A DNA stretch of 64,000 bases from Arthrobacter gandavensis. Its GTDB lineage: Bacteria > Actinomycetota > Actinomycetes > Actinomycetales > Micrococcaceae. Where the stretch lies: NCBI RefSeq assembly GCF_009192735.1, contig NZ_VTFU01000002.1, positions 434,001 to 498,000 on the forward strand, written 5' to 3'. Numbering within the stretch: the first letter of the stretch is position 1; every line of letters starts with the position of its first letter. The notes beneath the pieces were generated by a model, which did no database searches, was not told the origin of the DNA, and saw only the letters and a list, made by a program, of their open reading frames with translations. The translations under genes and the position numbers were made by a program. Below are positions 11,068-14,513 of the stretch, piece after piece.

Positions 11068-11610
11068 TTACTTCTTCTCTTCGGTCTCCACTGCTTCGTC
11101 TGCGGAATCAGCGGACTCGGCGGAGTCTGCAGACTCTGCGGAATCGGCGGACTCGGCAGATTCAGCGGAATCGGCAGATTCCTCAACCGGTGCCGGAGCA
11201 GCCACGGCTGCTGCGGTTTCGGCCTCGGCCACAACGGCCTGCTTCGCCGAGACGGGCTCGAGAACCAGTTCGATGACAGCCATGGGAGCGTTGTCGCCCT
11301 TGCGGTTGCCGATCTTGGTGATGCGGGTGTAGCCGCCGTCGCGCTTCTCGACTGCCGGAGCAATGTCGGTGAAGAGCTCGTGGACAATACCCTTGTCCGA
11401 GATCAGGCTCAGGACGCGGCGGCGTGAAGACAGGTCTCCGCGCTTTGCGAACGTGATCAGACGCTCAGCGTAAGGACGAAGGCGCTTGGCCTTGGTCACG
11501 GTGGTGGTGATCTGCTTGTGCTCGAACAGCTGGGCAGCCAGGTTCGCCAGCATCAGGCGCTGGTGGGCCGGGCTGCCTCCGAGGCGCTTACCCTTGGTGG
11601 GTGTAGGCAT
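11068..11610 (-). CDS. rplQ: 50S ribosomal protein L17 with acidic tail
   Basis: L17 lies near the polypeptide exit tunnel of the large subunit. The core (residues 1-115) opens [20 protein letters not shown] and is standard. It is followed by an Ala-rich linker and a low-complexity tail of repeated SAES/ADSAE units ending ETEEKK, giving 180 residues against about 120-130 in E. coli. The ATG at 11610 has GAGGAGAA upstream. It is the last gene of the infA-rpmJ-rpsM-rpsK-rpoA-rplQ unit. Confidence 0.96.
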
Positions 11611-11675: not shown

Positions 11676-12686
11676 TTAGAGCTCGTCGTCCGAGTATTCG
11701 GACTCGTCCTCTTCAATAGCTGCGGCACGGGCGGCGAGGTCAAATCCGGGAGGGGAATCCTTCAGGGACAGACCGAGCTCGACCAGCTTTGCCTTTACCT
11801 CATCAATGGACTTTGCACCGAAGTTGCGAATGTCCATCAGGTCAGCCTCGGAGCGGGCAACGAGTTCACCCACAGTGTGGATGCCTTCACGCTTGAGGCA
11901 GTTGTAGGAGCGCACGGTCAGCTCAAGGTCTTCGATCGGCAGGGCCATGTCGGCTGCCAGTGCGGCATCCGTGGGGCTCGGTCCGATTTCAATACCTTCA
12001 GCTGCGCTGTTCAGTTCGCGAGCCAGGCCAAACAGTTCAACCAGGGTGGTGCCGGCAGAGGCGACGGCGTCGCGCGGTGCAATGGCATCCTTGGTTTCAA
12101 CGTCAACGATCAGACGATCGAAGTCGGTGCGCTGTTCAACACGGGTAGCCTCCACGCGGAAGGTTACCTTCAGGACCGGTGAGTAGATGGAGTCGACCGG
12201 AATACGGCCGATTTCCTGGTCACCGGACTTGTTCTGGCTGGCAGAAACGTAGCCGCGTCCGCGTTCGATGGTCAGCTCGAGTTCGAACTTGCCCTTCGAA
12301 TTCAGGGTGGCAATGTGCAGATCCGGGTTGTGGAACTCCACGCCGGCCGGCGGAGCAATGTCCGCAGCCGTCACGACGCCGGGACCCTGCTTGCGCAGGT
12401 AGGCGACAACGGGTTCGTCGTGCTCGGAGGAGACCGACAGGTTCTTGACGTTCAGGATGATCTCGGTGACATCTTCCTTCACGCCCGGAACCGTGGTGAA
12501 CTCGTGCAGCACGCCGTCGATCCGAATGCTGGTTACTGCAGCACCGGGGATCGAGGACAGGAGCGTACGGCGAAGGGAGTTGCCAAGGGTGTAGCCGAAA
12601 CCGGGTTCCAGCGGTTCGATGATGAACCGCGAGCGGTTGTCGGCTACGACTTCTTCAGTGAGGGTAGGGCGCTGTGCAATGAGCAC
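11676..12686 (-). CDS. rpoA: DNA-directed RNA polymerase subunit alpha
   Basis: Alpha dimerises to start RNA polymerase assembly, and its C-terminal domain binds UP elements and activators. The protein has 336 residues. The N-terminal domain includes [19 protein letters not shown]; the C-terminal domain includes [20 protein letters not shown] and an acidic tail. I chose GTG at 12686 ([12 protein letters not shown]) because AAGGA lies 7 bases before it. The ATG two codons upstream would sit one base from that site. Confidence 0.96.
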
Positions 12687-12812
12687 TTGCATTTCCTTTC
12701 AGCGAGCGTCCGCTATATGACGCAACACAAATGGTGGAAACGACGACGACGGGTCTTCCGCGGGCGTCTTGGACGGCTAGCAGCCACGTGCCCGGAGCCG
12801 GAGGCGTCCGAT

Positions 12813-12872: not shown

Positions 12873-13274
12873 TTATACGCGGCGGCGCTTCGGGGGACGG
12901 CAGCCGTTGTGCGCGCTCGGGGTGACATCCGAAATGGAGCCAACCTCCAGGCCGGTGGCCTGGAGCGAACGGATGGCGGTTTCGCGGCCGGAGCCCGGGC
13001 CCTTTACGAAGACGTCGACCTTGCGGACGCCGTGTTCCTGGGCGCGCTTTGCAGCGGCTTCAGCAGCCATCTGCGCAGCGAACGGGGTGGACTTACGCGA
13101 GCCCTTGAAGCCAACCTCACCGGCGGAAGCCCATGAGATAACAGCACCGGACGGATCCGTGATGGACACGATGGTGTTGTTAAAGGTGCTCTTGATATGC
13201 GCCTGGCCAAGCGCAATATTCTTCTTATCCTTGCGACGCGGTTTGCGGACCGCTCCACGAGTCTTGGGGGGCAT
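12873..13274 (-). CDS. rpsK: 30S ribosomal protein S11
   Basis: S11 forms the platform of the small subunit near the mRNA exit. The protein has 133 residues, with [20 protein letters not shown], the [18 protein letters not shown] block and the conserved C-terminus [12 protein letters not shown]. The ATG is at 13274. It follows rpsM by 64 bp. The S4 gene that follows S11 in E. coli is absent here, and rpoA comes next. Confidence 0.97.
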
Positions 13275-13338: not shown

Positions 13339-13716
13339 TTAGCGGGCGGCCTTCTTCTTACCGGCAACCGTACGCTTCGGGCCCTTGCGGGTACGAGCGT
13401 TGGTCTTCGTGCGCTGGCCGTGTACGGGCATGCCACGACGGTGGCGGATACCCTGGTAGCTGCCGATTTCGACCTTGCGGCGGATGTCAGCGGCCACCTC
13501 GCGGCGGAGGTCACCCTCAACCTTGAAGTTGCCCTCGATGTAGTCACGCAGCTGAACGAGCTCAGCATCCGTGAGGTCCTTGACGCGAGTGTCCGGGCTG
13601 ATGCCGGTCTCTGCCAGGGTCTGGTCTGCACGGGTCTTACCCACGCCGTAGATATAAGTAAGCGCAATCACAACCCGCTTTTCGCGGGGAATGTCAACGC
13701 CAGCGAGACGTGCCAT
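13339..13716 (-). CDS. rpsM: 30S ribosomal protein S13
   Basis: S13 is in the head of the small subunit and bridges to L5. The protein has 125 residues, starts [20 protein letters not shown] and ends in a basic tail after the [22 protein letters not shown] motif. The ATG is at 13716. Upstream is a 157-bp spacer containing a compact four-stem RNA fold, in the position used by the S4-controlled leader in E. coli. Confidence 0.97.
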
Positions 13717-13753
13717 ATCGGCGGTTCTCCTTTTGTGTCACCGGAGGTCTGAA

Positions 13754-13827
13754 GCAGTACATCCCTGTTGCCAGGTCCCCGGCCTCCGGGCCGGGGGTGT
13801 GCGTTACGCGTATCAACGCTGTACTGC
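13754..13827 (-). promoter_or_regulatory. Candidate structured RNA leader of rpsM (four-way junction)
   Basis: The 74-nt minus-strand RNA has an 8-bp closing stem, GCAGTACA (13827-13820) with TGTACTGC (13761-13754). Inside it are three hairpins: GCGTT/AACGC (5 bp, 9-base loop), CCCCGGCC/GGCCGGGG (8 bp, CGGA loop) and CCTG/CAGG capped by the GNRA tetraloop GCAA. The linkers are 0, 4, 1 and 2 bases. It ends 37 bases before the rpsM start codon. I do not recognise it as a known family; a cis-regulatory or RNA-processing role is inferred. Confidence 0.6.
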
Positions 13828-13873
13828 CATATTCAATTACTACTACGCGTGGGCTGTCCCTGAGAGCAGGAAA

Positions 13874-13987
13874 TTAGCCCTGGCGCTGCTTGTGGCGCGG
13901 GTTCTCGCAGATCACCATGACTCGACCGTTACGGCGAATCACCTTGCACTTATCGCAGATCTGCTTGACGCTCGGCTGGACCTTCAT
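13874..13987 (-). CDS. rpmJ: 50S ribosomal protein L36
   Basis: This is a 37-residue zinc-ribbon protein of the large subunit. The sequence [19 protein letters not shown] is followed by the second half of the zinc site (Cys27, His32), so this is the zinc-binding C+ paralogue. It lies between infA and rpsM, its normal actinobacterial place. The ATG is at 13987 and the TAA at 13874. Confidence 0.97.
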
Positions 13988-14073
13988 GGTTATCCTTTGC
14001 GTGGTTGCAGGGTTGGGCCGCATGCAGCCGGCACCCCATGTGTCCGGGACGCTGACTGCCTATGCGGCGGTTC

Positions 14074-14295
14074 TTACTTGTAGCGGTAGACGATACGGCC
14101 CCGAGTGAGGTCGTACGGGCTAAGTTCCACCACAACGCGGTCTCCGGGGAGGATGCGAATGTAGTGTTGACGCATCTTTCCCGAGATGTGTGCGAGCACA
14201 ATGTGGCCGTTGGCCAGCTCAACGCGGAACATCGCGTTGGGCAGGGCTTCGTTGACCGAGCCCTCAATCTCAATGACGCCGTCTTTCTTGGCCAT
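14074..14295 (-). CDS. infA: Translation initiation factor IF-1
   Basis: IF-1 binds the A site of the 30S subunit during initiation. The 73-residue OB-fold protein ([20 protein letters not shown] to GRIVYRYK) is full length. GGAGG lies just before the ATG at 14295. It is the first gene after a hairpin and a good promoter, and so heads the infA-rpmJ-rpsM-rpsK-rpoA-rplQ unit. Confidence 0.97.
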
Positions 14296-14450
14296 ATCCT
14301 CCGCTAACGTCTGTGTCCCCCGTATGCACGAAGGACGGTTTATGTCTTTGGTTCTCCCTGGCGCTTCCTGCGCATCCACCGCGCCGTAGCCGTTTTGACA
14401 CGGCGCACATGCTTGGAAAAGGGCACGAATGTAGAGACAACCAACAGATA

Positions 14451-14479
14451 ACTCTACTCGACAGGCCCGGATAAGTTAA
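14451..14479 (-). promoter_or_regulatory. Candidate infA operon promoter
   Basis: On the minus strand TTAACT, a 17-base spacer and TAGAGT lie just after the map-side hairpin. The predicted start is near 14444, giving a leader of about 150 nt before infA. Confidence 0.5.
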
Positions 14480-14481
14480 AT

Positions 14482-14513
14482 CGGTCCGCTCCCCCGGCGG
14501 GGGCGGCGGTCCG
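14482..14513 (-). terminator. Terminator-like hairpin after map
   Basis: An interrupted GC stem (3, 4 and 5 bp blocks, with one mismatch and a bulge) is followed on the minus strand by ATTTAACTT. It lies 17 bases past the map stop and just before the infA promoter. Confidence 0.45.

Follow-up and report, generated by a model that had tools for sequence, protein, structure and literature searches.

A pseudoknotted four-way junction in front of rpsM: a probable ribosomal-protein leader in actinobacteria

In the 64,000-nt stretch of Arthrobacter gandavensis DNA analysed here (the window), infA, rpmJ, a 157-nt spacer, rpsM, rpsK, rpoA and rplQ follow one another on the minus strand, with map and adk (names read from M24 peptidase and ADK matches) upstream of infA. 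A first-pass annotation had placed a compact four-way-junction RNA in the spacer, which raises the question of what such a fold does in front of rpsM, and which ribosomal protein, S4, S13 or S11, might read it. The annotation also had S4 encoded outside this operon, and correctly so, as rpsD is found on contig C4 and rpsM on contig C5.

Fold of the leader and its pseudoknot

The leader lies on the minus strand, as do rpmJ and rpsM; the first-pass annotation had named no strand. The fold it proposed was recovered, with P1 (8 bp), P2 (5-6 bp), P3 (8 bp) and P4 (4 bp) joined by linkers of 0-4 nt. Its minimum free energy (MFE) is -40.9 kcal/mol for 13827-13754 (minus); shuffles average -24.9, which gives z -5.17, and none of 200 is as good (Table 1). 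The plus strand of the same interval also folds well (z -4.12), which palindromic stems lead one to expect. When the whole spacer was folded the junction was kept in the MFE structure, but with a z of only -2.28 (5 of 200 shuffles as good). The 8-bp stem described for P3 exists in this genome, whereas class-wide 6 bp are conserved and the two extra pairs are local. Similarly, the GNRA loop ascribed to P4 is present in the seven Arthrobacter leaders inspected (GCAA, GAAA, GUAA, GCGA), whereas two leaders of another Micrococcaceae genus have longer loops.

Table 1. Positions of the rpsM leader, its elements and the neighbouring genes in the window.
Feature	Positions	Strand	Basis or remark
Leader RNA, four-way junction P1-P2-P3-P4	13754..13827	-	MFE -40.9, z -5.17; covariation
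P1 5' arm GCAGUACA, 8-bp closing stem	13820..13827	-	Both-side changes in all 7 modelled pairs
P2 hairpin, of variable length and sequence	13801..13819	-	Fold; shuffle comparison
P3 hairpin CCCCGG/CCGGGG, 6 bp conserved; loop holds pseudoknot 5' strand	13777..13796	-	
Pseudoknot 5' strand CCGGAGG, in P3 loop	13783..13789	-	Complementarity, covariation
P4 hairpin CCUG-GCAA-CAGG	13764..13775	-	Fold; both-side changes in 4/4 pairs
P1 3' arm UGUACUGC	13754..13761	-	Covariation
Linker UUCAGA	13748..13753	-	Between closing stem and pseudoknot 3' strand
Pseudoknot 3' strand CCUCCGG	13741..13747	-	Complementarity, covariation
rpsM Shine-Dalgarno sequence AGGAG	13727..13731	-	Sequence
rpmJ (L36), maximal ORF, upstream of leader	13874..14023	-	PF00444
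rpsM (S13), gene behind leader	13339..13716	-	PF00416, E 7.6e-33
rpsK (S11)	12873..13274	-	PF00411
rpoA	11676..12692	-	Pfam
rplQ (L17)	11068..11610	-	PF01196

The most informative feature of the leader is a pseudoknot, which was missed at first because its 3' strand lies outside the 3' boundary originally drawn. The P3 loop (13789-13783) is complementary to 13747-13741, six bases past the closing stem on the minus strand. Most leaders have no linker at all between the 3' end of the pseudoknot strand and the 3' arm of P3, so the pseudoknot helix could stack on P3. Diverged members of the family carry whole-strand replacements with pairing restored on both strands, for example CCGAAGG/CCUUCGG (L030), CCAGAGG/CCUCUGG (L031), GCAGUGG/CCACUGC (L037), CACCGGG/CCCGGUG (L217), UCCGACAGG/CCUGUCGGA (L223) and UCAAAGG/CCUUUGA (L231). 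The pseudoknot core, CGGAGG/CCUCCG, is identical in 139 of 189 spacers, which were picked by complementarity, and because of this identity the independent changes are fewer than the cell counts given below suggest.

A few positions outside the helices also stand out. Of the unpaired 'AC' before P3 (13798-13797, minus), the A is found in 97 and the C in 100 of 100 sequences. At 13748 (minus), adjoining the pseudoknot 3' strand, 95 of 98 in the alignment have A; judged by conservation, these near-invariant bases are candidate protein or tertiary contacts. Upstream of P1, the motif AAYUGAA, at 13838-13832 (minus) in the window, occurs in 37 of 189 spacers, split into 18 AACTGAA and 19 AATTGAA (expectation ~0.65 in single-base shuffles), the AATTGAA cases inspected being close relatives of the window. 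A role in promoter activity or in cleavage is possible for this motif.

Covariation and distribution across the class

Covariation was gauged by pair counts and slide controls, in place of the R-scape statistic, for P1, P3, P4 and the pseudoknot. The first leader model (R1) was built from nine segments and includes P1, P3 and P4; the pseudoknot was left out, and the alignment of 100 loci made with it (A2) hence holds no pseudoknot information. One of these loci was L001, and the other 99 were a random draw from the remainder of 134 spacers, the 134 being 138 non-redundant spacers minus four. With structure and pseudoknot taken together, 94.8% of 2323 cells form standard pairs, 21 of 24 pairs show both-side changes, and the covariation score is 0.431 against 0.139 for shuffles, which ignore relatedness, so that shuffle figures here are not probabilities; sliding the alignment by 1-3 columns gave at most 0.074. 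P3 has 99.5% of its cells paired and both-side changes in 5 of 6 pairs. For the pseudoknot by itself, 95.7% of 656 cells pair, 5 of 7 pairs show both-side changes, and the score is 0.141 (shuffles 0.055, slid ≤0.071).

A further alignment (A4), with 67 matches from 71 loci, included leaders missed by R1 and one row, L217, that is a wrong-strand match; another (A3) was set aside for its spurious low-scoring rows. The whole structure in A4 is 93.9% paired with a score of 0.521, and the pseudoknot alone 92.7% of 422 cells with a score of 0.220 against 0.101 for shuffles. Two of five pseudoknot-only measures in A4, the pairs with both-side change and the further pair types, do not exceed shuffles (164/500 and 110/500 as high). 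Compensatory changes, proposed at the outset as support if found in all four stems, were thus seen in P1, P3 and P4. P2 lies outside the alignment and counts by its presence: its segment beats its own shuffles on average, with a mean z of -2.3 and values below -1 in 88% of 163 spacers (mean z of P4 in the same spacers, -2.5). A single-sequence descriptor was weak alone and was therefore not used as proof. Its first form gave a median real score of 55 against a shuffle 99th percentile of 55.1; its second, at a score of at least 50, accepted 144 of 177 spacers that the model had found and 23 of 40 that it had missed, against 2.7% of shuffles, and some of the best fits were in a wrong register.

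At E ≤0.1, R1 had matches in 141 of the 198 genomes sampled from the order and in 109 of the 197 from the class. Some R1 matches above E 0.01 are false: the eight loci without an rpsM start among the 193 first gathered, all with R1 E >0.01, are probably chance matches and not leader copies elsewhere. A second model (R2), built from A2, has matches at E ≤0.01 in 151 of 197 class genomes, and the fold is therefore not limited to this genome. Among the 125 of these matches that could be placed, i.e. those with a listed S13 position, 124 lie directly before rpsM, 22-64 nt ahead of the S13 match and on the same strand; the sole exception is a weak match elsewhere in G385.

The rpmJ-rpsM spacer was also read in 40 of the 88 class genomes in which R1 found no match. 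R2 recovers 35 of them in the correct orientation (E ≤0.5), and by reading, P3 and a complementary downstream strand are present in 38, five of which (L194, L199, L201, L221, L222) have one mismatch or bulge. The leader is absent from the other two of these 40 spacers, L225 (G229, 84 nt) and L229 (G259, 12 nt); both genomes are multi-contig assemblies. When named genomes were scanned with a DNA pattern, at least 119 loci matched, and in all 119 listed the rpsM start is 20-29 nt downstream. The named subset among the listed loci numbers 80 (L285-L364) and includes Arthrobacter, Glutamicibacter, Kocuria, Cellulomonas, Demequina, Kineococcus, Nocardia, Tsukamurella, Streptomyces, Kitasatospora, Micromonospora, Actinoplanes, Actinomadura and Nocardiopsis. 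One locus, L322, is a typical actinobacterial rpsM leader on a contig labelled as an Opitutaceae MAG, which is probably misbinned.

Beyond the class, no leader was found before rpsM in the genomes analysed. In a phylum sample of 246 genomes that included class members, nine outside-class genomes gave weak R2 matches (E 0.004-0.1); none of the nine loci fetched from these has rpsM, and two of the nine genomes have another four weak matches between them, on contigs other than that of S13. In 29 outside-class genomes, the nine among them, 26 of the 28 readable rpmJ-rpsM spacers are only 0-47 nt long, and for the two longer ones (L265, 129 nt; L261, 347 nt) the entire locus was checked with a pattern and showed no P3-like core. 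Chance or base composition as the cause of the fold is ruled out by the shuffles, the covariation and the distribution together.

Link to rpsM translation and the protein that may bind

The end of the pseudoknot is 18-27 nt from the start codon (5th-95th percentile; median 23, range 16-72, 183 spacers), and the Shine-Dalgarno sequence falls within this gap. A structured RNA with covariation directly upstream of a ribosomal-protein gene, the mark of a ribosomal-protein leader (r-leader), is thus present, and we consider it probable that the element is an unreported r-leader acting on rpsM translation, whichever protein binds. The original suggestion of a leader bound by a ribosomal protein is supported in its structural part, by a structured leader with compensatory changes that is outside Rfam; binding itself, the identity of the protein and repression at the leader remain predictions. 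In the mechanism we propose, the four helices would form the junction, and P3 and the pseudoknot helix could stack into one rod. Operon-encoded ribosomal protein in excess of its rRNA sites (S13 first, S11 second) would bind the junction or the P3-pseudoknot rod and hinder 30S initiation on rpsM, and translational coupling would then lower the following cistrons.

The main competing ligand is S4, acting in trans as in E. coli by binding the pseudoknot and trapping the 30S subunit; rpsD would ancestrally have been in the operon, and the leader would still answer to S4 after rpsD moved. In position the leader corresponds to the S4 operator of E. coli, which likewise forms a pseudoknot (PMC10931766). 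Of 105 leader-bearing class genomes with both rpsM and rpsD placed, 94 have the two genes no more than 2.5 kb apart and 11 have them unlinked, figures that do not give a prevalence because the 11 were looked up on purpose. The first-pass argument from a missing rpsD therefore holds for this genome and fails as a rule for the class. A tblastn search with four S4 queries near the 80 named loci found rpsD downstream in 38 and none within 2.2 kb in 28, the remaining 14 being too short, which leaves 66 informative loci.

Against S4, the leader is retained, and is of the same kind, where rpsD is unlinked, and it is retained where S4 is a low-scoring, divergent form; it also matches no Rfam family. 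Moreover, 13 of 13 unlinked rpsD loci lack a leader copy at E ≤0.1 (best 0.93), the sole strong match in that search being the rpsM leader of an in-operon locus, and S4 could therefore not regulate itself through the leader there. Retention of the leader without linked rpsD, and the lack of a copy at rpsD, favour S13 or S11 over S4 autoregulation. The case for S4 autoregulation is thus weakened for these genomes, and S13 or S11, which are never out of the operon, are better candidates. Within the r-leader reading, of which S4 binding is itself one form, our tentative choice of ligand is S13 or S11, and S4, acting in trans, is less likely. That S13 or S11 reads the pseudoknotted four-way junction as a class-wide, ancestral actinobacterial r-leader with a non-S4 ligand is likewise a possibility put forward with reserve.

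Two further observations concern these proteins. Of the two S4 genes in one genome, G306 (loci L404 and L417), the first is in the rpsM operon (E 1.5e-30), whereas the second stands alone and scores low (E 5e-17); the other sampled genomes of its genus have just one S4 match, also low-scoring. Counting against the r-leader reading with S13 or S11 as ligand, neither protein is a primary binder of 16S rRNA. Mimicry of a 16S binding site was dropped as a candidate, the leader model finding no match in the 16S rRNA locus of the window genome.

The leader might instead be a protein-free or ligand-tuned switch, in which the formed pseudoknot locks CCUCC and leaves the Shine-Dalgarno sequence free, and the broken pseudoknot releases CCUCC to pair with it and turn rpsM off. 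If the pseudoknot is ignored, 67% of 176 spacers show pairing of the Shine-Dalgarno sequence with the CCUCC of the 3' strand at a probability above 0.3 (seven further spacers without a recognisable Shine-Dalgarno sequence were left out). Holding out the pseudoknot strands raises the median probability that the Shine-Dalgarno sequence is unpaired from 0.31 to 0.67. The competing pairing is, however, weak in the window leader (0.24), and replaced strands (CCACUG, CCGCUG, CCCGGUG, CCUGG) lack the CUCC for GGAG although the pseudoknot is kept. Shine-Dalgarno sequestration was accordingly rejected as a general mechanism, since the strand-swapped lineages do not conserve that complementarity, and a switch of this kind is improbable.

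A shade more doubtful still is a processing or stability element that divides infA-rpmJ from rpsM-rpsK in a longer transcript. Such a role would suit the intercistronic position of the leader and the lack of a sigma-70-like promoter in 13600-14500 (the scan covers actinobacterial promoters poorly), but the near-constant start-codon spacing and the covarying pseudoknot better suit translation initiation, and processing alone has no need of fixed spacing. Transcriptional attenuation or pausing in the leader, to which strong stems upstream of a ribosomal operon might point, is very improbable, as a terminator scan of 13600-14500 gave two candidates, 13688-13674 (minus, within rpsM) and 14054-14072 (plus), neither of them inside the leader.

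Novelty and comparison with known leaders

The rpsM leader probably represents an r-leader family that Rfam 15 does not contain and that occurs in the actinobacterial class of the window organism, and the first-pass statement that no named family matches it stands. At the gathering score, Rfam 15 gives only a tRNA elsewhere in the window and no match in 20 related loci; up to E 10, 13700-13900 has four sub-threshold matches, none of which is Alpha_RBS (RF00140), which we take to be the S4 operator of the E. coli alpha operon. We know of no r-leader that responds to S13 or S11, and a leader read by either would, if true, be the first known for that protein. No actinobacterial rpsM leader was found in the literature searched, although supplements and papers outside that search may list one: the main texts of three papers (PMC6429828, PMC11109978, PMC8632094) contain neither rpsM nor rpmJ, and rpmJ does not occur in PMC2864571, for which the search counted no rpsM either.

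The preferred reading, an r-leader read by an operon-encoded protein, gives the alpha operon, whose products include the RNA polymerase alpha subunit, one concrete and testable control point that spans Arthrobacter, Streptomyces, Nocardia, Cellulomonas, Kineococcus and others. The leader probably lets the cell adjust its output of ribosomal proteins. The occurrence of the same leader with rpsD inside or outside the operon is a natural experiment that can separate S4 from S13 or S11.

Like the leader described here, the E. coli S4 operator precedes rpsM of the same operon, contains a pseudoknot and has translation initiation as its likely target. The E. coli pseudoknot, however, comprises the rpsM ribosome binding site (PMC10931766), whereas the one found here ends ahead of the start codon, at the spacing given above, and is joined to a four-way junction; the leader does not match the Alpha_RBS model. 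In E. coli, moreover, rpsD in the operon provides feedback, in contrast to the separate contig of rpsD in the window genome. The S4 r-leaders of Clostridia and Fusobacteriales sit on the same rpsM operon genes and are described as regulating rpsM, rpsK, rpsD, rpoA and rplQ (Eckert and Weinberg 2020, PMC7247131). In the part of that paper available to us, rpsM-operon S4 leaders are given only for these two groups, and of the 20 motifs tabulated the L17 and L31 leaders are the only ones assigned to actinobacterial lineages. The same text gives a conserved GAAA in Clostridia and GUAA in Fusobacteria; the consensus of 100 leaders has no invariant GUAA or GAAA, a comparison made with motifs known here by description and not as alignments. 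The mycobacterial rpsO leader controls another gene and answers to another protein, S15, and is likened to the present one by description, not base by base. It nevertheless offers a precedent: this r-leader too is actinobacterial and has a pseudoknot ahead of the initiation site, and the pseudoknot is needed for repression by S15 (PMC10931766, PMC8470358).
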